Source: Prosthecobacter sp. (lineage in GTDB: Bacteria; Verrucomicrobiota; Verrucomicrobiia; Verrucomicrobiales; Verrucomicrobiaceae). Taken from it: DNA of 45,493 bases. Position numbers and translations under genes: made by a program. Location of the stretch: NCBI GenBank assembly GCA_021733925.1, contig JAIPJY010000055.1:1-45493 (forward strand), written 5' to 3'. How positions within the stretch are numbered: the stretch's first letter is position 1; each line of letters begins with the position of its first letter. Under the pieces are notes generated by a model. That model was given only the letters and a program-made list of their open reading frames with translations. It did no database searches and was not told where the DNA came from. Below, piece by piece: positions 9,201 through 23,630 of the stretch.

Positions 9201-10274
9201 GTTTGGCAGAATAATCCGGTGGTCGATCGAGTAGCGGCCATGGGTGCGGATGGCCTCGCTGACTGCCAGGCGGATCATTGCGCGGTCGTCAGGATGAACC
9301 GCATCAAAGAATTTCTCATTCGTGGTTTCGATGCCTCCCACTTCATGACCAAAGATGCGGAAAACCTCGTCAGACCAGCGCAAGGCGTTGTTTCCAGACT
9401 CCTCCAGGACCGTCAAATCAAGCTCCCAGCTGCCGAAATGTGAAATGCGCTGGGCCGCCGCCATGGTGGCCTCACTTTGCCGCAGGCGTTCCTCCACTTT
9501 TTTCCTCTCGGAAATATCACGGGCCACACTGAGCATCGAAATCACCCGGCCCTCGGAATCACGCAGGGGAACCGAATGCATTTCAATCCAGGACAGCGTG
9601 CCTTTGAGGCCAATAACGCGGAAAATCTGATGCCCCGGTTCGCCCCCAATGACCTGGCAATGATGCTGCTGAAGTTTTTCCCGGTCATCCGGATGCACCA
9701 GATCAACAATCTGTCCCCCCTTGACCTCAGCCAGTGACCCAGCTTCGATGATTTTCAGGCCCGCAGAGTTCATTTCCTGAAGCCTCCCATCGCAATCGAC
9801 GATTTTCACGCACTCGGGTTCGAGATCAACAATGGCCCGCCCTTGCGCTTCCCGGTGGCGCAGCTCCAGCTCCGCCAGCCTGCGAGAGGTGATGTCGATG
9901 CAGGTGATGAGCGCACCTGCGCTGCCATCCACCGGCAGCGGAATGATCGTGATTTCGATCCAGCACCTTGCATTGGAGTCTGACAGGCAAGATTCGATCC
10001 GGGCACCCGCCGATTGCTGATTCAACACCTCCTTCAGAGCTTGAGCCCATCTTGCCGCCCCTTCAAAACGGGGTTCGCACTCCATGGCAAAGAAATCAAA
10101 ACAGCTGCCCTTGCTCTCCGGCAGACGCAGATCCTGGCCAAAAACCTCCGCAAAGCGAACCCGCCCGCCACTCACCGCATGAATGATTCCATGGTTGTCC
10201 ACCATAATGACGAGGCTGCCGGCGAGGAGTTGCTCCTGCACATTCAGCGCCAAATCTGACAACTCAGACTTCAT
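6273..10274 (-). CDS. Multi-PAS/GAF hybrid histidine kinase
   Basis: This is a large soluble hybrid sensor kinase, 1333 residues from the ATG at 10274. Approximate order: PAS (5-105), PAS (140-260), PAS (268-394), PAS (405-520), PAS (524-648), GAF (660-825), PAS (835-950), HisKA (955-1020), HATPase_c (1060-1190), receiver (1211-1330). The fifth PAS has the RFLQGPATD motif seen in many PAS/LOV-like domains, but I see no LOV NCRFLQ cysteine. The kinase core is intact: His973 in IAHDLNNVLTPI, N-box NLCVNARDAMPAGG, and G2 GKGTGLGLSTALAIM. The receiver Asp1265 is in LTDMRMPVMDG. The core is very like that of the neighbour ending at 6260, so they look like paralogues. An in-frame ATG at 10352 would add 26 Gly-rich residues; neither start has a clear RBS. 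Confidence 0.88.
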   Translation of the reverse strand: MKSELSDLALNVQEQLLAGSLVIMVDNHGIIHAVSGGRVRFAEVFGQDLRLPESKGSCFDFFAMECEPRFEGAARWAQALKEVLNQQSAGARIESCLSDSNARCWIEITIIPLPVDGSAGALITCIDITSRRLAELELRHREAQGRAIVDLEPECVKIVDCDGRLQEMNSAGLKIIEAGSLAEVKGGQIVDLVHPDDREKLQQHHCQVIGGEPGHQIFRVIGLKGTLSWIEMHSVPLRDSEGRVISMLSVARDISERKKVEERLRQSEATMAAAQRISHFGSWELDLTVLEESGNNALRWSDEVFRIFGHEVGGIETTNEKFFDAVHPDDRAMIRLAVSEAIRTHGRYSIDHRIILPNGEVRHIHEDAQIFLDERTGQPLRMVGTAHDITERKLAEDAIKASELRFRHAFTNASVGFAITDMSGVILHINKHYCHIIGYAENEMIGRSFAAVTHPDDVARKQDLNQRLMDGEINDFIVEKRYLCKNGKVAWVENSVSAIRDESGVALSMVVLCKDITKSRHNQEQLRLLEACVAHLNDIVLITEPEPLDEPGPRIVFVNDAFTRQTGYSREEALGSSPRFLQGPATDQFALGRMHAALAQGLPCKEELINYKKDGSAFSVEIDVVPIADLNGQATHFVAVQRDVTARKEAADRLWKSNLRYERQHVALARMIRGGVMQAVHLESAFRLITEEIAHAMDVERVSIWRYDQNRSSIICQMLFEAGARRHSSGLELHGEDYPAYFRAMAQNDTIAADDARLDPRTCEFTENYLSPLGITSMLDAPLHVGGVLAGVLCQEHVGPVRPWLPEEKSFATSMANFISLVLAQWERREAEDMLRQQASLLDKANDAILVRDLDHHITYWNKSAETLYGWTAEEAKGRKVSELLYADDAQFIEKNGNVLTDGEWAGEIQQVTKTGEMVTVEGRWTLVRDGEGRPKCVLAINTNITEQKRLEDQILRSQRMESIGTLAGGIAHDLNNVLTPIMMSVDLLNLRIKDEVCRETLGMIASSARRGADMLNQVLSFARGMEGQKTPLKISRLLQDLARIVGDTFPKNIHLRLQDELRDIDVVSGDPTQIHQVLLNLCVNARDAMPAGGTLTISAAHILIDAQYAAMNIEAREGPHILISVEDDGMGIASEMLPKIFDPFFTTKEMGKGTGLGLSTALAIMKSHGGFIRVYSELGHGSSFHVYLPAQPTQVLEPPVVEEQVLPRGNQELVLLVDDEAAVREITRQTLEAYGYRVLLAADGVEAVTLYSKHQQDIALVLTDMRMPVMDGSTTIQVLMKMNPQICIIAASGINSNSGIAKAAGAGVRQFLPKPYTAETILRALHQALNEH

Positions 10275-10781
10275 GATTGTAGGGCACCCAAACCCGCCAC
10301 CTCCATAGGGTATGATTTCGCTCTCACCACTGGGCAGATAATACGTGGGCATTTCTTACGCCAGAGAGGTCTATGCGCAAAGAAAGACATGTTGGGAACA
10401 CAACGGCCAGGAGGAGTGCAACCTTGGAAGCGATTTGCCTTTGTAAGCAACACAAAGGCAATAAAATAAGGAGGTAACCATGCTGTTCCTTCGGTCATCG
10501 ACGGGTGCGGTCAAGATACTGTACGCGCCAAATAATTCAGGACCGACATTTTGAAAAAAAAATCCATGCCTACTATGCAGGCTGGAGGAATTTACCAGCT
10601 TCTTTATTTGCAGGTCCCGGCTGCCTCTATTTTCGCCCAATGCAACCCCGTTTCACTGTGACTGGCCTCTCGTGCATGGCCAAAAGTACCCCGCTTTGCA
10701 AAGGAGGACGATTTCTTCGTGTGGATATCGGGAAATCCGCAGCGCCGTTTCGATGCGGGCCTCCCTGAGCCGCCCGTCTTC
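10275..10781. other. Intergenic region with a candidate small ORF and weak terminator
   Basis: About 500 bp (430 bp if the 10352 start is used) lies between the 5' end of one minus-strand kinase gene and the 3' end of the next. It must hold the promoter of the gene starting at 10274. It also contains a 24-codon plus-strand ORF with an unusually good Shine-Dalgarno (listed separately). GCCT-7 nt-AGGC at 10568-10582 is followed on the minus strand by nine T (10562-10554). This is a weak terminator candidate for the 10782-12590 gene. A second AAGGAGG occurs at about 10701-10707 with no convincing ORF after it. Confidence 0.4.
10480..10554 (+). CDS. Candidate 24-residue small ORF with perfect Shine-Dalgarno
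   Basis: The ATG at 10480 sits 4 nt after AAGGAGGT (10468-10475), the strongest ribosome-binding site I noticed in the window, where most genes have none. It opens 24 codons ending in TGA at 10552-10554. The peptide begins MLFLRSSTGAVK and ends NNSGPTF. It resembles no family known to me. It could be a leader peptide, a small regulator, or chance. It is antisense to nothing annotated and lies in the gap between two kinase genes. Confidence 0.3.
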   Translation: MLFLRSSTGAVKILYAPNNSGPTF

Positions 10782-12590
10782 TTACAGCCTCGCCGGCTGC
10801 AGCAGGGCCTGGCCCACGATGTTGAGCAGCTCGACCATTCCGAAGGGCTTTGGTAGAAAATTTTCGCCGGCCTTCAGCTCCTTCGCGTTGCTCAGCGTGG
10901 TTGGAGAGTAGCCACAGGTGAAAATGACCGGGAGCGTGGGGTCTTCGGCGGCAAGAGCTTTTTCCAGATCGAAACCGCTGACACCACCGGGCAGCTTGAC
11001 GTCAATGAGCGCGAGTTTGATGACTGACGACTTCTCACGCCAGATGGCCCAGGCTTCATTGGCATCTGCCGCAGTCAGCACCTTGTGCCCCTGGCTGGTG
11101 AGCACATATTCCATCACCTGCCGCACGGAATCCTCATCATCAACGATCAGAATGGTTGATGCCTCGTCCGCAGTGTTGTTGCTCAGGAGTTTTTTCTCCG
11201 GCGTGGCGGGTGTGGGCGCGGTTCCGCTGGCGACTGGCAGGTAAATGGAGAACTCCGTGCCGACTTCCAAGACACTCCTGCCGTCGATCCAGCCACCTTG
11301 CATGCGCACCAACCCCTGCACCAGAAACAAAGCGATGTCCGCACCACCTGGTTGATCCGAAGAAAGCTTGGATGAGTCAAACAGACCTGCCAGCTCGGCG
11401 GGGCTCAACCCCTTGCCGGTGTCAGCAATCGTCATGACAACATATTCTCCAGGTTTTGCCTCCGCATGCAGCTGGCAGGCTGCCGCAGCGTCCGGTATGA
11501 GCATGGGTCTGGTTTGAATCATTAATCTGCCTCCCGTCGGCATGGATTCACGTGCATGGATGAGGAGATTAAAAAGGATCTGCTCCAAGGCGGCCTGATC
11601 TGCCATGACACTAGGCAGATCCGGGTTATGGCTGATCTGGATGGCGATCTGCTCTCCCATCGCTTTCTGCAGCATTGCGGCCTGGCCATCAATGATCTGA
11701 GCGAGATGCAGAGGAGTCGGCTGAAGATATTCGCGCCTGTTGAATGACACAAACTGTGAGGTGACGCCCGCCGCACGCTGCGTGGCGAGGATGAGTTCTC
11801 TTAAAGCAGAGGTCGGCAGCACACTTGAGCCCGTGCCATTCTGGTTGAGCTGCGCAACTTCAAGATTGCCTTGAATCACGGTCAGGTAGTTGTTAAAAAA
11901 GTGCGCCATCGCATCGGCGAAACGTCCCACGGTTTCCAGTCGCTGGTTCCGGCACAACTGGTCCTCCAACTGCTTGCGGTGGTCCTGCTCAAGCCGGAGC
12001 CGGTTGCTGACGTCTTCGAATCGGGAGGTCACCTCGAGCAGCTGAGCATTCAGGCTGAGATTGCGATGTGAGGTTTGATTCTCAGCACCGTGCTTGACCG
12101 TGAGGGTGCGAATGAGCTGGGTGATCTCAAAGGGAACCAGCCTGAACTTGAAGACTAGAAGATGCGGATTGGACCCCAGGTCGATCGGGATCTGTTCGAA
12201 TGATTCCAGCTGGGAAACAGCATGCAGCACGATGTGCAAGTCGCGCTGGGACTGCCACAAGCGATTGATGATATACCGATAATCTTTCCCGTAAAAAAGG
12301 CGACCATCCATAATTACCAAGGAGAATGGTTTGTGCCCTTGCGCCGCAGCTTCCACCAACCCCAAGGCTTCCTTCTCATTGGCAGTGCAGACAACGTCGG
12401 GGGCGGAAGCTGCAGCTCTAGCTTTGTTGCTGCCATGCTCAATACCCAGCGAAGCAGAGGAACTGCCACTATGGCTCATGTTCTGTAGTGCGTGGGAAAT
12501 ATGCAGATCCTCATTCAAGGAACGCTCTTCGGTCACAATCAGAATTCGACTGCAGGCACTAAGGTTGTGCTGAATGGTATTTAGATACAT
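10782..12590 (-). CDS. REC-kinase-REC hybrid with degenerate ATP-binding site
   Basis: This 602-residue soluble protein has an N-terminal divergent receiver-like domain (about 10-180), a short coiled coil (185-215), HisKA (220-290), HATPase (325-455) and a C-terminal receiver (478-598). The N-domain keeps LVIMDGRLF at the phospho-acceptor strand and LLVFKF near the Lys strand, matching a REC family that often precedes kinases. The H-box is His230 in MAHFFNNYLTVI (usually HDFNN). The N-box Asn is His345 (NLLIHARESMPTGG). G1 DTGKGL is intact, but G2 (GGADIALFLV) is poor. The C-terminal receiver has VDDED, Asp530 in LIDVKLPGG and Lys in PKPF. Kinase activity is doubtful. It is transcribed divergently from the kinase/NarL pair at 12765. 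Confidence 0.85.
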   Translation of the reverse strand: MYLNTIQHNLSACSRILIVTEERSLNEDLHISHALQNMSHSGSSSASLGIEHGSNKARAAASAPDVVCTANEKEALGLVEAAAQGHKPFSLVIMDGRLFYGKDYRYIINRLWQSQRDLHIVLHAVSQLESFEQIPIDLGSNPHLLVFKFRLVPFEITQLIRTLTVKHGAENQTSHRNLSLNAQLLEVTSRFEDVSNRLRLEQDHRKQLEDQLCRNQRLETVGRFADAMAHFFNNYLTVIQGNLEVAQLNQNGTGSSVLPTSALRELILATQRAAGVTSQFVSFNRREYLQPTPLHLAQIIDGQAAMLQKAMGEQIAIQISHNPDLPSVMADQAALEQILFNLLIHARESMPTGGRLMIQTRPMLIPDAAAACQLHAEAKPGEYVVMTIADTGKGLSPAELAGLFDSSKLSSDQPGGADIALFLVQGLVRMQGGWIDGRSVLEVGTEFSIYLPVASGTAPTPATPEKKLLSNNTADEASTILIVDDEDSVRQVMEYVLTSQGHKVLTAADANEAWAIWREKSSVIKLALIDVKLPGGVSGFDLEKALAAEDPTLPVIFTCGYSPTTLSNAKELKAGENFLPKPFGMVELLNIVGQALLQPARL

Positions 12591-12764: not shown

Positions 12765-13511
12765 ATGCAGCGACATAATAATTTAAATTATTTAGCCCCA
12801 CACATGCATCCAACCGCCCTTGAAATGGAAAAAAACTCAGCCGCAATGCTGCTACAGGCGCTGAGCAGTCTGTTAAAAGAAGAAGATGCTCAGAGAGTCG
12901 ATCTTGCGCATTTGCTGCACAAAGACATGGCCGGCGGCTTGGTGGCCTGCGCCTCGCTGGGTGAAATGATGCGGCACGAACTTGCCAACGGTTGCGACAC
13001 GGCGAGCGTCGGCAAATTGCTGAGCAGCCTGGATTCGACTCTGCGGCAAACGCTGCAACTGGTCCGCGACATGACGGAAAAGCAGTTTCCGCCCGTTTTG
13101 AAAGCCTTCGGACTGCATGTGGCGCTGCAGCAGCTGGTGCGCAATGTTGGCGAAAATTTTGCAGGCTCACTGGTGCTGCACATCAGCGGTGATGAGCCGT
13201 CATTCGATCTCACCAGCCGGCTCAATCTGTTTCGCATCATGCAGGCACTGCTGAAACATTGCGTGCGATTTGCCAACACTTCATGGGTCGAGGTGACCTG
13301 CCGGGCGTCTGCTGAGAAGCTGGAAATCACCATTGATCACGATGGCGGTGACAGCATCTGGAAGGAGACGGGGGCCGGATCAGAAATGGCCGTCATCGAA
13401 GCCAGATGTGCTCTGCTGGGATCCCGCATGCAGGTCATGGGGGCCGGTCCCGGCGGCAGTTCACGCCTTTGCCTGATGGCGCTGCCATCAGCCCCGCAGT
13501 CCGCAGCATAA
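12765..13511 (+). CDS. Small sensor kinase-like protein, NarL-system type (HisKA_3-like)
   Basis: This soluble protein of up to 248 residues pairs with the NarL-type regulator 26 nt downstream. The segment LLHKDMAGGL (His52) matches the HDxxGQ/GG box of HisKA_3 kinases, followed by a helical dimerisation region to about 115 and an HATPase-like domain (about 140-245) with FRIMQALLK, DHDGGD and a Gly-rich GAGPGGSSRL end. The N-box Asn residues are replaced (LLKH instead of LTNN/LNN), so ATP binding through Mg may be impaired. No sensor domain is seen. The start is uncertain: the first 13 codons are very AT-rich and contain a 16-bp palindrome, so ATG 12804 or 12825 may be the real start. Confidence 0.72.
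   Translation: MQRHNNLNYLAPHMHPTALEMEKNSAAMLLQALSSLLKEEDAQRVDLAHLLHKDMAGGLVACASLGEMMRHELANGCDTASVGKLLSSLDSTLRQTLQLVRDMTEKQFPPVLKAFGLHVALQQLVRNVGENFAGSLVLHISGDEPSFDLTSRLNLFRIMQALLKHCVRFANTSWVEVTCRASAEKLEITIDHDGGDSIWKETGAGSEMAVIEARCALLGSRMQVMGAGPGGSSRLCLMALPSAPQSAA
12777..12792. repeat. 16-bp perfect palindrome
   Basis: AATAATTTAAATTATT is a perfect palindrome at the extreme 5' end of the called kinase gene. In a GC-rich genome this fits a promoter/operator better than coding sequence, and argues for a downstream start of that gene. Confidence 0.5.
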
Positions 13512-13537
13512 ACCTCTATCCGGTATTGAACACTCTC

Positions 13538-14185
13538 ATGCAATCTCCACCACCCTTCCGCATTCTAGTTGTCGATGATCATGCGCTGGTACGTGAGGCC
13601 TTCACCAGCATGCTGAAAGGGGAGTTTCCTCAGGCCACCGTGGTCTCCACGGGCACCTGTGCGGAGGCGATGGTTGAAGCCCGCCTGCACAATTATGAAA
13701 TCGCCTTGGTGGATATTGAGCTGGGGGACCGGTCGGGCATGGAACTGACCACGGAACTGCGCACACTGCCCACCCCGCCCAGAATCATCGCTGTTTCGAT
13801 GCATCAGGAGGAAACTTTTGTCTCACGTACCATGCAACTCGGAGCGCGCTCCTATGTGACCAAGGACGCCCCTCCGCATGAGCTGTTTGATGCGATTCGC
13901 TGCACCTTGGAGGGACGCAGCTACATTTCCAGAGAGCTTGCGCAAAACTTCGCCGACCGGTCCATCCGCAAAGGCTCCTCCGGGCAGGTGCATGAGAAAC
14001 TTTCCAACCGTGAGCTGGAAGTCCTCATGCAGCTGGCACGGGGCAAAAGCCTCAAACAGGTGGCGCTGGATCTCTCTCTCAGCCCGCGAACCGTCGCCGT
14101 GCACAAGCACAACCTGTGTCGCAAGACCGGGCTCAAAGGAACTGTCGAAATTCTCCGCTACTGCCAGTCCAACGGACTGGCTTAA
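13538..14185 (+). CDS. NarL/FixJ-family response regulator (REC-LuxR HTH)
   Basis: This is a 215-residue transcriptional regulator. The receiver (about 5-125) has VVDDH, phospho-acceptor Asp59 in LVDIELGDRSG, a Ser in AVSMH and Lys in VTKDAPP. A LuxR-type helix-turn-helix fills about 150-212: LSNRELEVLMQLARG then SLKQVALDLSLSPRTVAVHK, the usual NarL signature with minor changes. The frame is open upstream to 13406, but those codons overlap the kinase gene, and ATG 13538 gives the standard N-terminus. It follows the small kinase by 26 nt, so they form a two-component pair. Its targets may include the ATTTAGGT sites upstream of the pair or the FadL gene just downstream. Confidence 0.9.
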   Translation: MQSPPPFRILVVDDHALVREAFTSMLKGEFPQATVVSTGTCAEAMVEARLHNYEIALVDIELGDRSGMELTTELRTLPTPPRIIAVSMHQEETFVSRTMQLGARSYVTKDAPPHELFDAIRCTLEGRSYISRELAQNFADRSIRKGSSGQVHEKLSNRELEVLMQLARGKSLKQVALDLSLSPRTVAVHKHNLCRKTGLKGTVEILRYCQSNGLA

Positions 14186-14202: not shown

Positions 14203-15462
14203 ATGAAAAATCGAGTCGTCCATTTCATTCTCTCCCTGGGTTTGACCTCAGCAGCGGTGCAGGCATCCGAAACGTTCTCCGTGGTGCCTGATTCCGCCCA
14301 GGCGCTGGGCATCGTGGGCGGCAGGTATGCCAATCTGAGCGACGCTTCAGCCGTGCGGGTCGCACCGGCCAACATCTTGAAGATCGAAAAAAGCGAACTG
14401 CTGATCAACACGGCTCTTTGGCATGGTGACATTTACTTCACGCAAAATGGCGGGCAAGGGGTGCCGATGAACCGTCCGTGGGTGTTTCCCGCGAGCATGT
14501 ACTTTGTGCAGCCAGTCATTCCAGGCAGGTTGTCTTTCGGCCTCGGTGTCAGCACCCCCTATGGCATGGCCGCCTCCTATCCCAAAGGCATGGGCGGTGC
14601 CCTGCGCTATGCACTGCCCTATGAGGCGACTTTGCTGACGGTGGACATCACCCCGGCGGTGGCGGTGAAGATCACCGATGATCTCAGCTTTGCCGTCGGA
14701 CTCGACATCTTGTACGCCGACCTGACGCTGAAGCAGTTCTACTCCTGGAACAATATCATTCCCGGTTCGCCAGAAGGAGACATCAAGATACGCGGCCAAG
14801 GCTGGGGCATGGGCGCTTATGCCGGCATCAACTGGACCTTTGCCAAAAGACATCGTTTCGCAGTAATCGGACGGCTGCCAGTGAAGGTCAATCTCAGCGG
14901 TGATTTCAAAGCCTCCAACATTCCGCCAGCACTGGCGGGCACCTTCAGCCAGTCCAGCAGCTTTCAGTCCGACACAACCTTTCCGGGCTCCATCTCCGTC
15001 GGCTATGGGTTTGATGTGACGGACCGCTTCACTGTGGGTTTTGACTTCAAATGGGCCCAGAACTCATCCCATGATGATCTTCCCATCCTGATCGGCAACA
15101 ACCAGCCTCTGCTGGGGGGCTCGACCGGCAGCGTCTTTGGCTGGAGAAACTCCATCGATCTCGGGACCGGGATGTCGTATCAGCTGAATGAAAACTGGGC
15201 GCTGCGAGGTGGCTATCTCTTTTCAGAAAACTCCCAGCCGCAGAACAGCTACACTCCACTGGTCCCTGGCAATGACAGGCACGTCTTCAGCCTGGGTGTT
15301 GGCTGGCGGGGCAAAACGCGGGGGGTGGATCTCACTTATGCCTACGTTTACTACCCCACTCGCGTGATCAGCGGGGCCGCCTCCACTCCTGCCAACCAGT
15401 ACGATGGGAGCTACACCCATCAATGGCACGTGCTGTCTCTGAGTGTCACGCAGCGGTTTTAA
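14203..15462 (+). CDS. FadL/OmpP1-family outer-membrane lipid transporter
   Basis: This 419-residue outer-membrane protein has a signal peptide of about 22 residues ending VQA-SE. After it comes the FadL-family N-terminal pattern: an Ala/Gly-rich segment with SDASAVRVAPANI, equivalent to the DASAxFxNPAG motif that forms the hatch. The rest alternates short amphipathic strands with Gly/Asn/Ser loops and ends in Phe (VTQRF), typical of a beta-barrel. FadL proteins carry long-chain fatty acids and other hydrophobic molecules across the outer membrane. It starts 17 nt after the NarL-type regulator gene, so it is probably co-transcribed with the kinase pair, and it lies 141 bp before the PhcB-like methyltransferase. 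The likely substrate is a fatty acid or its methyl ester (inference). Confidence 0.85.
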   Translation: MKNRVVHFILSLGLTSAAVQASETFSVVPDSAQALGIVGGRYANLSDASAVRVAPANILKIEKSELLINTALWHGDIYFTQNGGQGVPMNRPWVFPASMYFVQPVIPGRLSFGLGVSTPYGMAASYPKGMGGALRYALPYEATLLTVDITPAVAVKITDDLSFAVGLDILYADLTLKQFYSWNNIIPGSPEGDIKIRGQGWGMGAYAGINWTFAKRHRFAVIGRLPVKVNLSGDFKASNIPPALAGTFSQSSSFQSDTTFPGSISVGYGFDVTDRFTVGFDFKWAQNSSHDDLPILIGNNQPLLGGSTGSVFGWRNSIDLGTGMSYQLNENWALRGGYLFSENSQPQNSYTPLVPGNDRHVFSLGVGWRGKTRGVDLTYAYVYYPTRVISGAASTPANQYDGSYTHQWHVLSLSVTQRF

Positions 15463-15603
15463 TTCAAAAAAATGACAGTATGCATATTTACCTCGCATGT
15501 CTCCACCACCACTGTGGTGCCATGCCAGAACGCGCGGCGATCTTTTTCAACAAGGCTTGTGTTGTCATCAAGGCGCTAACCGCTTTAGCAGAGGATTCGT
15601 AAC
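15463..15603 (+). promoter_or_regulatory. Intergenic region before the methyltransferase operon
   Basis: This 141-bp gap starts with an A-run (TTCAAAAAAATGACAG). It ends with the Shine-Dalgarno GAGGA at 15591-15595, 8 nt before the ATG at 15604. I see no strong hairpin terminator, so read-through from the FadL gene is possible, but a promoter may also lie here. Confidence 0.35.
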
Positions 15604-17052
15604 ATGGAGAACAACGACAACGCACTGCCCAATCTCGCTTCCTCAGGGGAGCGGCTCAGTTTCATCATCTGCCGCAACAGCCAGGGCGCTGAAGTGCGCG
15701 GCACGTTGCACCGGCTCACACGCTATCTAGGCGTGTTCGAGGTTTATAATCCCTACAGCATCGTACAGCTCTCTGAAGTTCTGAATGACTTCAGGATCAT
15801 GATGAACGACCGCGTGGTCTACACCGGCCGGGCCACGATCGCCAATTTGGTGAACACCGGCATCATGCTCATCTGCGAGGCATCGCTGTCGGATGAAGGC
15901 TGGATCGACATCGACATCCTGTCCCCCTCGCAGAATAAAGGCCGCCTGCTGACCGAGTTCGCCGAGTTCCTGCGGGAGACGGAAAAAAGCTATCGCGTCA
16001 TGCCCGATTTCAAAATTGTGGTGGCGGACATGCACACCATGCTTTCCGACCTTCGCCGCTGGATGGAGCAGGTGGAGCTGGGCGTGCGCTCGCTGCCTAC
16101 GGGAGATCGCATTCAGGCGGAGCGTGAAGTCCTCCTGCAAATGGAAGAGCCCATCGTTCCCACCGTGTATCCATTGATGAAACGGTTTGAGGAATCAGCC
16201 GCCATCATACCGCTGGAGCAGCAGCCGGTGCACCGCAGCTACATCAAGCGCCAGTTGCACCCGCTGGTGCTCTGCGCCCCGTTTGTTTACCGAACCTATC
16301 ACAAGCCGCTGGGCTATGCCGGTGACTATGAAATGGTCAGCATGATGCTGCGTGATCCATACGAAGGCAGCTCGATCTTTGCGAAGCTGCTCAACAAGCT
16401 TTATCTGGACATCCCGCCGGTCATTGCCCACCGCAACCGCATCGTTTACCTCGTCGAACAGCTCAAGGCTGAGACGACGCGTGCGTCCTCCGCAAACCGT
16501 GTCGCCCGCATCTACAACCTGGGTTGCGGCCCGGCGCAGGAGATTCAAAACTTCCTCACCCATGAGCCCATCTCCGACTCGGCTGACTTGCTGCTGCTTG
16601 ACTTCAATGATGAGACCATCATGCACACGACGCGGTCCCTGGAAGAACTGCGCAACCGACATCGTCGCCGCACCGGCCTGCGCTTTGAGAAAAAATCTGT
16701 GCATCAAGTTTTGAAAGAGTCCGGACGTGCGGCCGCCCAGGCCGGCACCTACGACATGGTCTATTGTGCCGGTTTGTTCGACTACCTCTCGGACCGCATC
16801 TGCCGACGGCTCCTTGAGATCTTCTACGATCTGCTCGCCCCCGGCGGATTGTTGATCGCCACGAATGTGCACCCCAGCAATCCCTGGCGGAACTGGATGG
16901 AGTATCTCGCTGAATGGCATCTGGTGTACCGTGACGAGGAACAGTTCCTCAAACTCGCGCCTGATCGCGCGCCGCCCGGGTCCGTTGTGGTGAAACCAGA
17001 CGCCACCGGCGTGAACATCTTCCTCGAAGTACGCAAACCTCTCGATGCCTGA
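15604..17052 (+). CDS. PhcB-like SAM-dependent methyltransferase with PilZ-like N-terminal domain
   Basis: This is a 482-residue cytoplasmic protein. Residues about 14-110 form a small beta-rich domain (LSFIICRNSQG..., VFEVYNPYSIVQLSEV) that looks PilZ-like but lacks a clear RxxxR...DxSxxG c-di-GMP signature. A helical part (120-300) carries PLGYAGDYEMV at about 235, a motif I associate with PhcB-type proteins. A class I methyltransferase fold follows, with SAM motif IYNLGCGPA at about 301-309, acidic LLLDFND, and AGLFDYLSDR then LAPGGLLIATNVHPSNPW. PhcB of Ralstonia makes 3-hydroxypalmitate methyl ester, a quorum signal. The substrate here is not known. The stop overlaps the next ATG by 8 nt, and the next two genes are two-component proteins, as in phcBSR. 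Confidence 0.75.
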   Translation: MENNDNALPNLASSGERLSFIICRNSQGAEVRGTLHRLTRYLGVFEVYNPYSIVQLSEVLNDFRIMMNDRVVYTGRATIANLVNTGIMLICEASLSDEGWIDIDILSPSQNKGRLLTEFAEFLRETEKSYRVMPDFKIVVADMHTMLSDLRRWMEQVELGVRSLPTGDRIQAEREVLLQMEEPIVPTVYPLMKRFEESAAIIPLEQQPVHRSYIKRQLHPLVLCAPFVYRTYHKPLGYAGDYEMVSMMLRDPYEGSSIFAKLLNKLYLDIPPVIAHRNRIVYLVEQLKAETTRASSANRVARIYNLGCGPAQEIQNFLTHEPISDSADLLLLDFNDETIMHTTRSLEELRNRHRRRTGLRFEKKSVHQVLKESGRAAAQAGTYDMVYCAGLFDYLSDRICRRLLEIFYDLLAPGGLLIATNVHPSNPWRNWMEYLAEWHLVYRDEEQFLKLAPDRAPPGSVVVKPDATGVNIFLEVRKPLDA

Positions 17053-19729
17053 TGCTTCTCCAGTTTTAGCTGGTGGCCTGAAAGGAAACTTTCAGGCCTA
17101 CGAGCAGGACATCCGAGTCCGCAACTATCAGCTCTGCGGCATCCTCGCCGTCGTGTTTATGCTGGCGGGGAGTTCCTTGGACTGGGTCGTGTTTCAAGAG
17201 GAGGGCGTTAAACGCTTCTTCCCCGCACGTGTAATTTCCGCCGTGATCAGCGTCCTTGTCTGGCTGGCTTTGACCACCGCCTGGGGCAAGCGCATGCACC
17301 GCCTGCTCGGCCTGCTCATGGCCATGCCTCTCATTGTCGGAATTGCATGGATGATTTACGCCAAGGGCGGTGCCGAATCACCCTATTATGCCGGGTTGAA
17401 CCTGGTGATGCTGGGAGCTGCAATCCTCATGCGCTGGACGCTGCAGGACAGCATTCTGGTCGTGGTCCTGACCGTGGCTTCCTATCTGCTGGCCTGTTAT
17501 TTCCATGGTCCGATCGTCAATCGCAGCATCTTCTTCAACAACTTGTACTTCCTGTTTGTCACGGGGGTCTTCACCACGGCCGGCACCTGGTTTTACAACA
17601 GCATTCGCTTTTCCGAGTTCAAACTGCGGCACGATCTGGACCTCAACCGCGCCGAGCTTGAGGCCAGCAACCAGAAACTGCGTGAGCTCGATGAAGCCAA
17701 AAGCCGCTTCTTCGCCAACATCAGTCATGAACTTCGCACTCCGCTGACCCTGCTCATTGCTCCGCTGGAAAGCCTGATCCAAGGTGCTGAATCCACCCGG
17801 CCTCAGGAAGAGCGAGACCTGATGGCCACGATGCATGGCAACTCCATGCGCCTGCTCAAGCTCATCAATGACCTGCTGGATCTGGTGCGCATGGAATCCG
17901 GCCGTGCTCAGGTCAACACCAAGCGCGTGAACGTGAACGATTTCATTGGCGGTCTCGCCAATGCCGTCGGCAGTGTCGCGAAGGACAAGCGCATCCATCT
18001 GCATTCTCATGTGGATGAGGATCTCGGCAACGTGCTTGCCGATCCGGATAAGCTGGAGCGCATCTGCCTCAACCTGCTCTTCAACGCCCTGAAATTCACC
18101 GCCGCCAATGGTCATGTCAATTTCAGCGCCCTCAAGACCGACGGCTGGCTGGCCATTGAAGTGCGTGACACCGGCATGGGCATTCCGGCGGATCAACTGC
18201 CGCACATCTTCAACCGCTTCTGGCAGGCGGACACCTCATCCCAGCGCAAATTCCAGGGCATGGGCATCGGCTTGGCCCTCGTCAAAGAGCTCGCGGAAGC
18301 GCAGGGCGGCAATGTGGTGGCCACCAGTGAAGTCGGCAAGGGCACGACCATGACGGTGAACATTCCCCTCCTCCAAGGCGAGCCGACCGACACTGAAGAA
18401 GAATTGGGTGAAACGACCGAGGAAACTGACCCCGACAGTCACCAGAATAAAGACTGGATCGCCGAACTCTACCGCCGCGCCGAACTCTTCCCGGCCATGA
18501 CTTCGCTGCAAGCCACCCTCCGTCCGGTGGAAACCGGCGTTGGCCGCAGCCGCAAGCCCAAGCTGCTCATCGCTGACGATGAGCCCGACATGCTGCGCTT
18601 CCTCAAGAGCCAGCTCAGCGGCACCTTCGAAATTCTTGAGGCCGTGGACGGACAGCAGGCCGTGGAAAAAGCTGCGCAGTTCCTCCCGGACATCATTCTC
18701 TCAGACATGATGATGCCGGAAAAGGACGGCCTGCAGGTCTGCCGCGAGTTGCGTGAACGCAGCATCACGCGTTCCATCCCCGTGGTGCTGCTCACCGCAC
18801 GGGCTGATGAAAAAACCAAGATCGAATGCCTCGCCGCCGGGGCCAGCGACTTTCTGGCCAAACCGTTCTCACTCACGGAGATCATGGTGCGCTTGAAAAA
18901 TCTCGTCGATTCCCGCCTGTTCCAGAAAGAGCTCGTGGTGCAAAAGCAACAGCTCGAAAATGCGCTGGAGCAGATCAAGGAGACGGAATCCATGCTCGTG
19001 CAGAACGAGAAGCTCGCCTCGCTCGGACGCCTGAGCGCCGGCTTGATCCACGAGATCAACAATCCGCTCAACTACGCCCGTCAGGGCCTGGGCATCATCA
19101 GTCGCTCCACCAAATCCCTGCCCGAGGACAAACGCGCCGACTTTGCCGACACCGTCAAAGATGTGGAGGAAGGGGTGAACCGAGTCATCCAGATCATTTC
19201 CGACCTGCGTGGTTTCACCCGCACCACCAACCAGCTCAATCACGCCTTTGACCTGAAGAGCGTGGTGAACACCTGCATGCGCTTCTTTGCTCATGTCTGG
19301 AAAGACGGCATCCAGCGTGAGGTGGACATTCCCGACGAACTTGAAGTCCGGGGCGACAGCAACCAGTTCGTGCAAGTGCTCATCAATTTCATCCAGAACG
19401 CTCTGGATGCCATGGCGACCAAGGAATACCCGGAGGGAGAGTCGGCCTGCATCAAGCTTTCCGCGTTCGCCCGTGGAGACAGAACCATTTTCTCCATCAA
19501 GGACAACGGGCCCGGCATCCCGCAGGAGATCCGGGACAAGATCTTCGATCCCTTCTTCACCACCAAGGACGTGGGCCAGGGCATGGGGCTTGGACTTTCC
19601 ATTTGCAACCGCATCATTGCCGACCATGGCGGACGCATTGAAGTACGCAGCCAGCCCGGTCAGTTTACCGAGTTCATTCTCGAGCTACCCTCTACCGACA
19701 GCACCAACAACAACCACGCCGATACCTAG
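17045..19729 (+). CDS. Six-TM sensor hybrid kinase with HK-REC-HK architecture (PhcS-like context)
   Basis: This is an 894-residue inner-membrane sensor. About six hydrophobic segments fill residues 28-185, with little periplasmic sequence, so a lipid-soluble or membrane signal is plausible. Then come a coiled coil and HisKA-1 with His228 (NISHELRTPLTLLIAPLE), HATPase-1 (330-442, NLLFNALKFT, DTGMGI, GMGIGLALV), and a receiver (505-622) with ADDEP, Asp554 in LSDMMMPEKDG and Lys in AKPF. After another coiled coil come HisKA-2 with His669 (AGLIHEINNPLNYA) and HATPase-2 (767-882, NFIQNALDAM, DNGPGI, GQGMGLGLSI). Both kinase cores look complete, which is rare in one chain. Its start overlaps the methyltransferase gene end, and the next gene follows after 14 nt, so the three form one operon. 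Confidence 0.88.
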   Translation: MPDASPVLAGGLKGNFQAYEQDIRVRNYQLCGILAVVFMLAGSSLDWVVFQEEGVKRFFPARVISAVISVLVWLALTTAWGKRMHRLLGLLMAMPLIVGIAWMIYAKGGAESPYYAGLNLVMLGAAILMRWTLQDSILVVVLTVASYLLACYFHGPIVNRSIFFNNLYFLFVTGVFTTAGTWFYNSIRFSEFKLRHDLDLNRAELEASNQKLRELDEAKSRFFANISHELRTPLTLLIAPLESLIQGAESTRPQEERDLMATMHGNSMRLLKLINDLLDLVRMESGRAQVNTKRVNVNDFIGGLANAVGSVAKDKRIHLHSHVDEDLGNVLADPDKLERICLNLLFNALKFTAANGHVNFSALKTDGWLAIEVRDTGMGIPADQLPHIFNRFWQADTSSQRKFQGMGIGLALVKELAEAQGGNVVATSEVGKGTTMTVNIPLLQGEPTDTEEELGETTEETDPDSHQNKDWIAELYRRAELFPAMTSLQATLRPVETGVGRSRKPKLLIADDEPDMLRFLKSQLSGTFEILEAVDGQQAVEKAAQFLPDIILSDMMMPEKDGLQVCRELRERSITRSIPVVLLTARADEKTKIECLAAGASDFLAKPFSLTEIMVRLKNLVDSRLFQKELVVQKQQLENALEQIKETESMLVQNEKLASLGRLSAGLIHEINNPLNYARQGLGIISRSTKSLPEDKRADFADTVKDVEEGVNRVIQIISDLRGFTRTTNQLNHAFDLKSVVNTCMRFFAHVWKDGIQREVDIPDELEVRGDSNQFVQVLINFIQNALDAMATKEYPEGESACIKLSAFARGDRTIFSIKDNGPGIPQEIRDKIFDPFFTTKDVGQGMGLGLSICNRIIADHGGRIEVRSQPGQFTEFILELPSTDSTNNNHADT

Positions 19730-19743
19730 AAGGACTCCCCCAT

Positions 19744-20994
19744 ATGCAAAACCAATACGACCTCAAACGCTATGCCGTTCTCTATGTCGATGATGAAGAG
19801 AAGGCGTTGAAGTACTTCGAAAAAACTTTCGGAGACGAATTCCGCATCTTCACCGCCATCAGCGCGGCCGAGGGGCTCAAGCTCATCGAGCAGCACGGTG
19901 AGGACATCGGCGTGCTGCTGTCTGACCAGCGCATGCCCGGAGAAAAAGGGGTGCAGTTGCTTGAGCGCGCCCGCCAGCTCCGCCCCCGCCTCGTGCGCAT
20001 GATGGTCACGGCTTATGCCGACTACGATGTCACGGTCGATGCGGTCAACCTCGGCAGCATCTTCCGCTACATCTCCAAGCCCATCCAGATGGACGATGTG
20101 CGCAACACCCTGCACCGCGCCATGGAGTTCTACATCCTCCAGCAGGAGCGTGACGGACTGCTGCAGGAAAAACTCTCCGTGCTGCAAAACCTCCTCATCA
20201 CCGACCGCGTCATGGGTCTGGGGGTCGTCGCAGCCGGGCTGAACCAGAAGCTGAACCAGCCTCTGCGCGCCGTACATGCCTTCCTGGACATCACGCCAGG
20301 CAGACTCGGTCAGCAGAACTTTGACCTCGACCGTCTGCGTCAGGCCACCTTCTGGCGCGACTTCCATGCGCATGTGGTGCGTCAGGCCGCCCGCATTGCT
20401 GATCTCCTCGGTGAACTGCAGTCCGCCTCCGGCCCAGAACACAAGATGGATGCGGCGAATGTGCTGACGGCTTTGATTGACCAGCAGCGCTCCGCCTTCA
20501 CCGCCAAAGGCATCGAATTGAAATTCGAAGCCGCCGGCGCACTCCCTGCCCTTCAGGCCAGCCGCCCCGCATTTGAAAAAATGCTGTACCTGCTGCTCCA
20601 GACAGAACTCGCATTGCTCTCCTCCGGCACGCAGGTCACCCTCTCTGCCAAAACAGCGACCGAGGCTGCCGACGCCGGAGCCCTGCACCTCACCCTCACC
20701 GACACCGGTCCTGGACTTGCAAGCGAAGTGCTGCGCTCTGTGTTTGATCCCTTCTTCACGCACGATGATGCTACCACAGATGGCCCCGGCCTCACCCTCA
20801 TGGGGGCGTTTTTCCTCGCCTACCACCTCGGCGGGCGCATCACCTCCCAGCGGACCGCCAAGGGCCTGATCCTCGACATCGTCGTGCCGGCCGTGGCTCC
20901 AGCCCCGATCGCTCCAGTGGACAGCAGCCGTGAATTCATCACCAACGTCCTCATGAATGACGTTCTCTGGGAGCGTCTGCTGCCCAACGGCTGA
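19744..20994 (+). CDS. Response regulator with kinase-like C-terminus lacking the phospho-His (PhcR-like)
   Basis: This is a 416-residue soluble protein. The receiver (about 5-125) has YVDDEEKALKYFEK, phospho-acceptor Asp61 in LLSDQRMPGEKG, TAYAD and Lys in ISKPI. The SDQRMPG text is typical of PhcR/PhcQ- and RpfG-type receivers. The C-terminal part (about 150-400) follows a kinase template, but the H-box reads AAGLNQKLNQPL, with Gln168 where His is expected. The N-box is also lost (LLLQTELALL), while the G1 motif DTGPGL and FDPFFTHDD remain. It cannot autophosphorylate in the normal way and may use its HATPase fold as an allosteric output. GAAGGA lies 9 nt before ATG 19744. It is last in the operon with the methyltransferase and HK-REC-HK genes. 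Confidence 0.82.
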   Translation: MQNQYDLKRYAVLYVDDEEKALKYFEKTFGDEFRIFTAISAAEGLKLIEQHGEDIGVLLSDQRMPGEKGVQLLERARQLRPRLVRMMVTAYADYDVTVDAVNLGSIFRYISKPIQMDDVRNTLHRAMEFYILQQERDGLLQEKLSVLQNLLITDRVMGLGVVAAGLNQKLNQPLRAVHAFLDITPGRLGQQNFDLDRLRQATFWRDFHAHVVRQAARIADLLGELQSASGPEHKMDAANVLTALIDQQRSAFTAKGIELKFEAAGALPALQASRPAFEKMLYLLLQTELALLSSGTQVTLSAKTATEAADAGALHLTLTDTGPGLASEVLRSVFDPFFTHDDATTDGPGLTLMGAFFLAYHLGGRITSQRTAKGLILDIVVPAVAPAPIAPVDSSREFITNVLMNDVLWERLLPNG

Positions 20995-21030: not shown

Positions 21031-22398
21031 TTGAGCCGTCGTTTAATGACGGCCATGCGCACCTTCTTCTTTTTCCTCCTCCTCTGCCCCGCCCTTTTCG
21101 CGGCACAGCCCAACATCGTCTTCATCCTCGCGGATGACTTCGGCTACGGCGATCTCGGCTGCATGGGCTGCAAGGACATCGCCACGCCAAACATCGACCG
21201 CCTCGCCGCGGAAGGCGTGAAGTTCACCGACTTCTACGCCAACGCCCCCGTCTGCACACCGACACGCGCCGGATTCATCACCGGGCGCTGGCAGCAGCGC
21301 TGCGGCATCGAGTTCGCCTTCGGCTATCAGGTCGAGCAGTTCCGCCGCGTGAAGGACGCCTGGGTCCCGGAACCGGACATCCACGGTCTTGGCCTGCCCT
21401 TGGGAGAAACCACCATCGCCCAGCGTCTCAAGACCGCGAACTATGCCACCGGCGCCTTCGGCAAATGGCATCTGGGCTACAAAGACGAGTACAACCCCAC
21501 CAAGCGCGGCTTCGACGAATACTTCGGCGAACTCCTGGGCCACGCCGACTACTACAAGCACACCTACTACGACGGCACCTATGCCCTGCGCGACGGCCTG
21601 GAACCGGTGAAACGCGAAGGCTACTTCACCGATCTCATCAACGACCGTGCCGTAAAGTTCATCCGTGACCACAAGTCGGCGCCGTTTTTCATGTACGTCC
21701 CTCATCTCGCCGTCCACTCGCCGTTTGAAGCACCTGACGCGCCTGAGACACCCATGGTCACCAAGGAAAGCATGCTCAAAGGCAGCCGCGCCATCTACAA
21801 GGCCATGGTGGAACGCATCGACCTCGGCGTCGGCATGATTCTTGCCGAATTAGACACACTTAAGCTGGCTGAAAACACGCTCGTCGTCTTCTCCAGCGAC
21901 AACGGCGGCGAGCGCTACAGCCGCAATTCTCCCCTCTTCCACCACAAAGCCACCGTCTGGGAAGGCGGCATCCGCGTGCCCTGCCTGATGCGCTGGCCGG
22001 GCAAACTGCCCAAAGGCAAGGTCACCTCCCAAATGGCCATCACCATGGACCTCCACGCCACCTTCCTCGCCGTCGCCGGAGTCACCGCGCCTGCACCTAA
22101 ACCATTGGATGGCATCAATTTACTACCCCTCATCACCGGAGATTCCAAGCCCGTCGAACGCACCTTTTTCTGGCGCATCGACCGCTCCAACCGCAAGCAG
22201 CGCGCCATTCGCCAGGGCCCGTGGAAGTACATCAACGACGGCAACAGCATGGACCTGCTCTTCAACCTCGACTCCGACATCGGCGAACGCACCGACCTCG
22301 GCTACCAGCACCCCGACATCCTCGCCGACCTCAAAGCCAAGCTCAAAGCCTGGGAGGCCGAGATCGACGCCACCGAACGCGAGATTTGGGTGCGCTGA
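21031..22398 (+). CDS. Secreted sulfatase (arylsulfatase family, S1-type)
   Basis: This alkaline-phosphatase-fold sulfatase of about 455 residues is exported by a signal peptide (MRTFFFFLLLCPALFAA or slightly longer). It would act on sulfated polysaccharides or esters in the periplasm or outside. Key features: metal ligands ADDFGYGD near the N-terminus, the formylglycine motif CTPTRAGFITGR (Cys converted to FGly; the usual form is CxPSR), GKWHLG, and DNGGE with downstream H/K residues. The TTG at 21031 has GGAAGG at a 6-nt spacing and is my preferred start; ATG 21046 and 21055 lack an RBS but give a more standard signal peptide. The DUF1080 gene follows after 53 bp, suggesting a small catabolic operon. 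A formylglycine-generating enzyme is not in the window. Confidence 0.92.
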   Translation: MSRRLMTAMRTFFFFLLLCPALFAAQPNIVFILADDFGYGDLGCMGCKDIATPNIDRLAAEGVKFTDFYANAPVCTPTRAGFITGRWQQRCGIEFAFGYQVEQFRRVKDAWVPEPDIHGLGLPLGETTIAQRLKTANYATGAFGKWHLGYKDEYNPTKRGFDEYFGELLGHADYYKHTYYDGTYALRDGLEPVKREGYFTDLINDRAVKFIRDHKSAPFFMYVPHLAVHSPFEAPDAPETPMVTKESMLKGSRAIYKAMVERIDLGVGMILAELDTLKLAENTLVVFSSDNGGERYSRNSPLFHHKATVWEGGIRVPCLMRWPGKLPKGKVTSQMAITMDLHATFLAVAGVTAPAPKPLDGINLLPLITGDSKPVERTFFWRIDRSNRKQRAIRQGPWKYINDGNSMDLLFNLDSDIGERTDLGYQHPDILADLKAKLKAWEAEIDATEREIWVR

Positions 22399-22451
22399 GT
22401 GTGTGAATCCTCATTGCTCCCCGCCTCTTCCCATCTACCTCTCTTACCACC

Positions 22452-23630
22452 ATGAACCGACCCACGCTTCACACTCTCGCCCTGTCACTGCTCACCACCG
22501 CTGCGCTCGCTGACGGCGCGTTCTACGGCGATCCGCCGGACGCGACGCATCCGTGGGCGATCCATGACATGAACCGGCCGCAGCCCGTGCGTGTGGAGCC
22601 GGGCACATTCAGCTCTCAGGAAAAGCCAGGAACACCACCTTCGGATGCGGTCATTCTCTTCGGCGGGAAGCCGGAGGAGATTGAAAAATGGCAGGCAGAC
22701 AAAAATCCCGCTGAGCCGACCAAGTGGGAAGTCAAAGACGGTGTGCTGCAATGTGTTCCAGGCAGCGGCTACGTCCGCACCAAGGAACAATTCTCCGACT
22801 GCCAGCTTCACATTGAATGGAGCGCCCCCTCCAAGGTCGAGGGCAACAGCCAGGGCCGCGGCAACAGCGGCATCTTCCTCATGGGCCAGGTCGAAGTGCA
22901 GGTGCTGGACAATTACAACAACCCCAGCTACCCCGACGGCATGGCTTCATCCATCTACGGCATCAATCCGCCGATGGCGAATCCGCTGCGTGCGCCCGGT
23001 GAATGGCAGACCTACGACATCGTCTTCCGCCGCCCGATCTTCAAAGATGGCAAGGAACTCGATCCTGGCTACATCACCGTGTTCGTCAATGGCGTGCTCA
23101 CGCAGGACCACACCCCGCTCGAAGGCGGTGGTGGTCACATGCGCCGCTCCTCCCCGAAAGCCTTCCCAGACCAGGGCCCGCTCAAACTGCAGGACCACGG
23201 CAATCCAGTGCGCTACCGCAACATCTGGTACCGCCCGCTGCCCAAGCGCGCCATCGACGGCGGTGAAGCCAGCCACATGACCGAAGCCGCCACCGCTGCG
23301 AAGCGTGCGGAGATCGCCAAGAACATCCGCGAATCGGCCGCCAAACTCGAAGGCAACGAAAAGATGCTGCACCTCTTTGAATCCCTCTGCTACGAAGACA
23401 ATGCCGAGGCCCGGAAGTCTGCCCTCGCCGCTGTCAACGATTTCACCAGCGTGATCAAGGAGGTGCCCCCCGGCAAGATCGAATCCAAGAAGGGCGAGAT
23501 CCTGCAGGTGGCCAAGGCGCTGCGCTACCTGACCAAGTTCAAAATCCTGCCGGAAGACATCGCCGCCAAGAAGGATTTGGAAGCCATCATCAAGGTGGAG
23601 GATTGGGAGCCCAAGCCGAAGAAGAAGTAG
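22452..23630 (+). CDS. Secreted DUF1080 (3-keto-disaccharide hydrolase family) protein
   Basis: This is a 392-residue exported protein. A signal peptide (about 1-20, LTTAALADG) is followed by a short Pro-rich stretch and one DUF1080 concanavalin-like beta-sandwich (about 60-265): LFGGKPEEIEKW, WEVKDGVLQCVPGSGYVRTKEQFSDCQLHIEW, GNSGIFLMGQVEVQVLD, GEWQTYDIVFRRP and NPVRYRNIWYRPL. A Lys/Glu-rich helical tail runs from 270 to the end. Members of this family act on 3-keto sugars or glycosides, and are abundant in Verrucomicrobiota and Planctomycetota. With the sulfatase upstream it probably works on environmental polysaccharide fragments; the precise substrate is unknown. Confidence 0.9.
   Translation: MNRPTLHTLALSLLTTAALADGAFYGDPPDATHPWAIHDMNRPQPVRVEPGTFSSQEKPGTPPSDAVILFGGKPEEIEKWQADKNPAEPTKWEVKDGVLQCVPGSGYVRTKEQFSDCQLHIEWSAPSKVEGNSQGRGNSGIFLMGQVEVQVLDNYNNPSYPDGMASSIYGINPPMANPLRAPGEWQTYDIVFRRPIFKDGKELDPGYITVFVNGVLTQDHTPLEGGGGHMRRSSPKAFPDQGPLKLQDHGNPVRYRNIWYRPLPKRAIDGGEASHMTEAATAAKRAEIAKNIRESAAKLEGNEKMLHLFESLCYEDNAEARKSALAAVNDFTSVIKEVPPGKIESKKGEILQVAKALRYLTKFKILPEDIAAKKDLEAIIKVEDWEPKPKKK

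Follow-up and report, generated by a model that had tools for sequence, protein, structure and literature searches.

Does a run of four forward-strand genes in Prosthecobacter encode cell-cell signalling of the kind known from the phcBSRQ genes of Ralstonia and Cupriavidus? The genes lie in a stretch of 45,493 nucleotides (contig JAIPJY010000055.1, hereafter the window; its assembly comprises 7.3 Mb) and appear to encode, in order, a FadL-type outer membrane channel (14203..15462, with an ATG at 14203); a 482 residue PhcB-type methyltransferase, the proposed signal synthase (15604..17052); an 894 residue hybrid sensor kinase (17045..19729); and a PhcQ-like protein combining a receiver, an EKLSVLQ linker and a degenerate kinase (19744..20994). 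The original prediction for this DNA had proposed a lipid quorum-sensing locus, and the open reading frames (ORFs) reproduce all of its gene coordinates, the 141 nt between the FadL and methyltransferase genes, the 8 nt overlap of methyltransferase and kinase, and the 14 nt gap between kinase and receiver genes. The phcBSRQ gene order used for comparison has been described (PMC8578825, PMC6989110) and is reported in Cupriavidus (PMC2842291, PMC2864759). Judged against it, the cluster reads as a Phc-type signalling operon, phcB-phcS-phcQ with an extra kinase-receiver module in the receptor, and it probably functions as one in communication between cells. We call it Phc-type rather than phcBSRQ itself because the window does not contain a separate PhcR, the receiver-kinase encoded between PhcS and PhcQ; what it has is a kinase-receiver module within the sensor kinase.

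Methyltransferase, receptor and receiver

The methyltransferase is 40-43% identical to Cupriavidus PhcB across nearly its full length (the reference being sequences from Cupriavidus, where papers report phcBSRQ, and not Ralstonia solanacearum PhcB). In trees it groups with PhcB and with no unrelated family, as its predicted PhcB-like character implied. Pfam assigns it generic methyltransferase models only (best PF08242, E 3.8e-07), with no match to the CheR model PF01739 at E<=0.001; the possibility that it is merely a generic S-adenosylmethionine (SAM) methyltransferase is ruled out by the full-length homology to PhcB. Both motifs named in the original prediction are present, the SAM motif NLGCGPA at residues 305-311 (16516..16536, forward strand) and the PLGYAGDYEMV block at residues 235-245, and N305, C308, G309 and P310 of the former are invariant across 45 aligned sequences. 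The predicted structure (pLDDT 86.6) has an N-terminal beta domain, a helical part and a class I methyltransferase, and Foldseek matches it to methyltransferase cores (best 3ocj, E 2.3e-10, TM by query 0.40); a phmmer search against PDB sequences gave weak matches, the best at E 0.055.

A plasmid search found a Paraburkholderia graminis match (38.8% identity over 94%) within a methyltransferase-kinase-receiver-receiver operon. The Enterobacter ludwigii plasmids NZ_CP134637 and NZ_CP134634 (H3, H4) carry a PhcB-like methyltransferase domain within a gene annotated as a type I polyketide synthase. The methyltransferase domain has another, shorter relative at G000:C57:13341-14036 (reverse strand; G, C and L numbers are our own handles for genomes, contigs and loci), with 26-32% identity and matches in many genomes of the genus, including genomes that do not have the full phc cassette; most of these shorter relatives have frames of ~320-380 aa, and some are interrupted by a stop.

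The sensor kinase contains HisKA, two HATPase stretches and a receiver according to Pfam. Its first 220 residues (17045..17704) form a sensor domain of six transmembrane helices (six-TM) that aligns with the PhcS sensor at an hhalign probability of 100 (E 3.7e-39, 196 columns, 30% identity). The AlphaFold model of this domain has a pLDDT of 89.7; Foldseek returned no match to it at E 0.001 or better, and its resemblance to the six-TM anchors of ImcA and adenylyl cyclase 9 comes at weak E-values (TM by query 0.70-0.72 and 0.57-0.63, respectively). Of 17 proteins related to the sensor domain, 7 match the Pfam family MASE8; the window's own sensor does not, nor does the PhcS of C. pinatubonensis at E 0.01.

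Beyond the sensor lie a first histidine kinase core, HK1 (17696..18373), a receiver (18566..18895; PF00072, E 2.2e-26), and a second core, HK2 (18977..19699), with their respective phosphorylation residues H228, D554 and H669 all kept. The last of these is the counterpart of H230 in R. pseudosolanacearum PhcS, a residue required for signal transfer (PMC11960443), and of H231 in three Cupriavidus loci. The kinase core of PhcS scores HK2 at ~130-175 bits vs ~45-55 bits for HK1. Related receptors also occur in a short form of six-TM domain and HK2 only (453 aa; G343, L175) and in a split form, six-TM-HK1 and receiver-HK2 (G170, L169). Because HK2 is the PhcS core and because these short and split forms exist, HK1 and the receiver appear to have been inserted between the sensor and kinase core of PhcS. 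The predicted domain order of six-TM region, kinase, receiver and kinase therefore stands, while the protein is better read as PhcS (six-TM and HK2) with an HK1-receiver insert. A head-to-tail fusion of PhcS to PhcR was considered and rejected: the PhcS core matches HK2 and not HK1, and the PhcR receiver matches that of the third gene, the middle receiver appearing once, weakly, among the top matches listed.

That third gene has a receiver and a partial HATPase match in Pfam. The receiver aspartate, D61, is kept, and because the H-box histidine position reads N (in GLNQKL), the earlier label of pseudokinase is a fair one. Receiver and linker together are 42% identical to C. pinatubonensis PhcQ vs 39% to PhcR, a small gap. 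The linker itself, EKLSVLQ...R, is common to the window protein and PhcQ and missing in PhcR, and window R155 aligns with the PhcQ linker arginine (R154 in strain GMI1000). The C-terminal part matches the PhcQ C-terminus weakly (hhalign probability 80), with conservation mostly in the linker.

Taken against phcBSRQ of Ralstonia and Cupriavidus, whose signals are the methyl esters of 3-hydroxypalmitic (3-OH PAME) and 3-hydroxymyristic acid (3-OH MAME), the cluster has the same gene order and strand, a full-length PhcB-type methyltransferase, a six-TM PhcS sensor, the phospho-histidine of the kinase core, and a PhcQ receiver with its linker arginine. It differs in the HK1-receiver insert within PhcS, in the FadL gene upstream, in the degenerate kinase that ends the third gene where PhcQ has an uncharacterised C-terminus, and in belonging to another phylum. 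A separate PhcR is not universal in Betaproteobacteria either, since a PhcR-like kinase is missing, at the threshold used, in 22 of the 80 betaproteobacterial loci described below.

Sites of published GMI1000 mutations were checked as a fingerprint in nine betaproteobacterial loci. R22 of PhcB, a change in which slows the onset of quorum sensing in GMI1000 (PMC6989110), is arginine in 9/9. In the eight Cupriavidus-type loci, nucleotide spacings are near those of GMI1000 and unequal to them (1830-1873 vs 1835 and 2444-2462 vs 2501), and PhcS carries S instead of L at position 161. The PhcQ linker arginine sits 2-3 residues past position 154.

Conservation of the cassette and its neighbours

A full-length methyltransferase gene is present in 25 of 37 genomes of the genus and truncated in one more (G003). 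Across 387 genomes drawn evenly from the phylum it was found at E 1e-20 or better in 22, representing 13 of 197 genera; in 21 of these 22 the kinase gene lies beside it (19 as a one-piece hybrid, 1 split, 1 short), and the pair occurs in 12 of the 13 genera. The three-gene cassette is kept in 13 of 14 annotated phc loci of the genus (L034-L045, L053), with the receiver gene split over two ORFs in L042. With the cassette kept in 13 of 14 loci and the methyltransferase-kinase pair in 12 of 13 genera, the association is not a matter of chance. At the fourteenth locus (L052, G003:C93) the truncated methyltransferase gene adjoins the receiver gene and the hybrid kinase is missing, an apparent decay of the cassette.

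Among 398 genomes in a Pseudomonadota sample (centre included), 9 match the methyltransferase, 7 of them at full length. From a profile search of genome contigs we took the best 80 of 569 relatives as a betaproteobacterial set; their titles place every one in Betaproteobacteria and almost all in Burkholderiales. A six-TM kinase follows the methyltransferase within 500 nt in 79 of them, the exception (L087) having a short methyltransferase ORF and a kinase 530 nt on. The order in Cupriavidus is methyltransferase, six-TM kinase, receiver-kinase, receiver protein, and a search of two Cupriavidus genomes and one other found a single such methyltransferase in each (E 0.001 or better).

The upstream channel belongs clearly to the FadL family (PF03349, E 2.4e-45, 155.2 bits vs a cut-off of 29.7) and is the sole PF03349 match in the window's genome. 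A FadL gene lies 125-173 nt upstream of the methyltransferase (in profile coordinates) in 18 of the 25 genus genomes with the full-length gene; one genome (G007) has FadL without the methyltransferase and 11 have neither FadL nor a full-length methyltransferase, giving a Fisher p of 5e-5 for co-occurrence, uncorrected for relatedness. The spacer between the two genes is poorly conserved outside the nearest species. Outside the genus, FadL lies within 7 kb of the methyltransferase in 7 of 18 genomes, where 0.11 would be expected within 10 kb (again uncorrected), which rules out chance adjacency. In five f2 genomes its place is after the receiver gene, 2 in the same direction and 3 convergent, and in two others it precedes a synthase gene. 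Homologues of the methyltransferase are thus found near both FadL and kinase genes, the neighbourhoods on which the original prediction depended. In a FadL tree (which includes L207, a mis-framed ORF) the phc-adjacent proteins are scattered over several unrelated branches, and the adjacency label needs 6 changes, at least 5 of them forced by well-supported branches. Inheritance of the phc-side FadL as one unchanged block throughout is excluded by these changes, which fit repeated recruitment and could include losses or moves.

Further evidence on the enzyme's substrate comes from a clade sister to betaproteobacterial PhcB: in 5/5 of its loci (L167, L168, L170-L172) the methyltransferase gene follows closely on a gene of ~2,100 aa. 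Large synthase genes upstream of the methyltransferase were located at L167:2549-8827, L170:3267-9539, L171:2378-8713 and L173:1770-9581 and, on the reverse strand, at L168:9720-15968 and L172:10660-17004 (L167, L168 and L173 identified by Pfam, L170 and L172 by similarity, L171 as a long ORF only). By Pfam, L167 and L168 encode KS-AT-DH-ER-KR-ACP with no thioesterase match, and L173 encodes AMP-ligase-ACP-KS-AT-methyltransferase-KR-ACP; going by this domain order, the last reduction in L173 should leave a 3-hydroxyacyl chain. Such neighbours fit a methyltransferase acting on acyl chains. The window's genome holds two type I polyketide synthase genes on other contigs (C11 and C120; L217:6170-13870 and, on the reverse strand, L218:114-7034), the first half of which is 37-40% identical to the synthases of L167, L168, L170 and L172.

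A different arrangement, an N-terminal receiver fused to a PhcB-like methyltransferase, was identified by Pfam at L046:7600-9471, L047:8498-10507 (reverse strand) and L177:2089-4146. These fusions support a direct link between the two-component path and the putative synthase, and direct action of PhcQ on PhcB has been proposed earlier (PMC6989110).

The methyltransferase tree, built from sequences of the phylum and of Pseudomonadota after removal of several near-duplicates and of the long-branched L177 and L178, places betaproteobacterial PhcB in one clade (100/100), sister to the phylum's synthase-linked clade (99/96) and nested deeper (100/99). A single clade for the phylum's methyltransferases is not rejected by the approximately unbiased test (AU p 0.06). 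The kinase tree, without L169 (split kinase) and L178 (no kinase), separates both groups and joins the betaproteobacterial branch near L168/L172; having no outgroup, it leaves the direction undecided. It is conceivable, though we would sooner doubt it than assert it, that Phc is old and widespread in this phylum, fed by polyketide synthases in some lineages and repeatedly recruiting FadL, and that the betaproteobacterial version, including the Ralstonia virulence switch, is a trimmed offshoot.

Two genes upstream may belong to the same gene run. The first (12765..13511, forward), possibly its start, encodes a small degenerate kinase, NarX-like by eye, with no Pfam match at E<=0.001 and a weak HATPase_c match only (E 0.028). 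It is overlapped by a gene for a response regulator with a receiver and a LuxR-type DNA-binding domain (13493..14185, forward; PF00072, E 2.2e-21; PF00196, E 1.5e-14), which ends 17 nt before FadL and is a candidate output regulator; the synteny of the two extends to 6 of 13 loci of the genus (L034-L038, L053). Scans found 2 promoter sites vs 3.0 expected and 10 terminator sites vs 7.1 expected. Divergent from the cluster are genes for a 1359 aa sensor kinase-like protein, PAS-like by eye (6273-10352, reverse), and a kinase-receiver protein (10782-12590, reverse), a relative of which directly precedes FadL in the same direction in L041, L042 and L045. Downstream (21031-23630) Pfam identifies a sulfatase gene and then a 3-keto-disaccharide hydrolase-type gene, whose close relative also comes after the cluster in L036 and L053.

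Alternative explanations and contrary evidence

The alternative that survives best is the sensing of nutrients or membrane lipids, in which FadL imports fatty acids, the kinase senses them or the state of the membrane, and the methyltransferase detoxifies or modifies them, with no communication between cells. FadL is generally regarded as a channel for hydrophobic molecules at large (PMC9938287), the cluster copy may also serve nutrition as the only FadL of its genome, and the proteins that the six-TM model weakly resembles, ImcA and adenylyl cyclase 9, are enzymes not known as quorum sensors. This explanation must be set against the kinship, in the same gene order, of methyltransferase and sensor with those of a proven signalling system, the existence of genomes with methyltransferase and kinase and no FadL match (G009, G017, G018, G033), and the polyketide synthases beside the methyltransferase in the sister lineage, which make a product of the cell's own likelier than food. 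We consider it unlikely.

A second alternative holds that the methyltransferase finishes a lipid or polyketide (an antibiotic, a pigment or a membrane component) and that the kinase only regulates its biosynthesis, as the synthase neighbours in L167, L168 and L170-L173 and the polyketide synthase annotation of the Enterobacter plasmid gene would allow. The examined loci of the window's genus and of the f2 genera are without a synthase, however, and a cassette of methyltransferase, sensor and receiver is the minimum for a signal and its response, so that this explanation seems to us very improbable. Least probable of all is a CheR-like adaptation in which the receptor or receiver would be the substrate of the methyltransferase and the receiver-methyltransferase fusions (L046, L047, L177) would give direct feedback on receptor state: a distant relative (H5) is annotated as CheR and PF01739 matches L046 (E 0.12) and L178 (E 0.068) weakly, but the window protein itself does not match that model at the threshold given above, its closest characterised relative, PhcB, makes a small-molecule ester (PMC8578825), and synthase genes adjoin the methyltransferase in the sister lineage.

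Signalling of the Phc type, which we prefer, must itself be tempered by several contrary observations. One genome of the phylum sample (G282) has the methyltransferase without the kinase. No synthase-like gene of at least 1,200 aa lies beside the methyltransferase in the examined loci of the genus. Among the 25 genus genomes with a full-length methyltransferase, five have no FadL match (G009, G012, G017, G018 and G033, the contig of G012 ending beside the methyltransferase) and two have FadL only elsewhere (G236, G247); outside the genus the corresponding counts are 5 and 6 of 18. A profile search found FadL in none of the 80 betaproteobacterial phc loci, with flanks of up to 8 kb and in some loci less (the profile was built from 17 adjacent FadLs, whose own recovery is circular). 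Because several genomes with the methyltransferase have no FadL or only a distant one, FadL is not essential, and within the phylum it is a recurrent but dispensable partner. No PhcA-like (LysR-type) gene is found among the nine window proteins scanned with Pfam, the genome at large not having been searched for PhcA. Finally, Cupriavidus metallidurans CH34, with all phc genes, is reported to give a like activity and not 3-OH PAME itself (PMC2864759), and gene content therefore does not specify which ester is made.

Comparison with other signalling systems helps to place the cluster. The synthase of diffusible signal factor (DSF), RpfF, is a crotonase, and the same nine proteins gave no crotonase match. 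The Rpf/DSF system is alike in pairing a fatty-acid signal, as proposed here, with a histidine kinase, there RpfC (PMC5391125). Lqs and Cqs likewise use a membrane kinase (LqsS, CqsS) as receptor for a small signal, and a six-TM design is described for the Vibrio receptor (PMC4821796); their synthase is a pyridoxal phosphate (PLP) enzyme, LqsA (PMC10653808), where the cluster has a methyltransferase, and the likeness of the receptors is one of design. In rhizobia, Sinorhizobium fredii being the case compared, uptake of long-chain acyl-homoserine lactones (AHLs) is reported to depend on FadL (PMC9938287), which parallels the proposed admission of a long-chain signal here, with the difference that the window FadL adjoins the proposed synthase and the account in that paper gives no sign of placement in a signal operon.

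A proposed signalling route

We infer the following route, from substrate to a possible response to cell density. The PhcB-type methyltransferase would turn an acyl chain, 3-hydroxylated or of a related kind, into a membrane-permeable ester signal, which would leave the cell, re-enter through the FadL channel and reach the six-TM domain of the hybrid kinase. Phosphate could then pass from HK1 to D554, on to HK2 and H669, and finally to the PhcQ-like receiver protein. The latter, having no DNA-binding domain, probably works through contact with other proteins, the methyltransferase being one conceivable target, and the upstream LuxR-type regulator is a candidate for the DNA-binding output.

Relative to known Phc systems, the apparent novelty lies in the module inserted into the receptor, the lack of a separate PhcR and the association with FadL. 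Among the open-licence matches listed, none presents Phc-type signalling in this phylum in its title or the opening of its abstract, subscription papers and preprints being outside that scope, and a term search of PMC8895600 found PhcS absent. A 2023 survey, limited to Pseudomonadota, reports phc as restricted in distribution, to Betaproteobacteria (PMC10653808). If the reading given here is true, it carries Phc signalling beyond that range into another phylum, where a single gene run holds candidates for the signal synthase, the receptor and the import channel. It further suggests that passage of the ester across the outer membrane can be a dedicated step in Phc, and that the receiver branch may act directly on the synthase, as the receiver-methyltransferase fusions hint and as was proposed for PhcQ and PhcB (PMC6989110).

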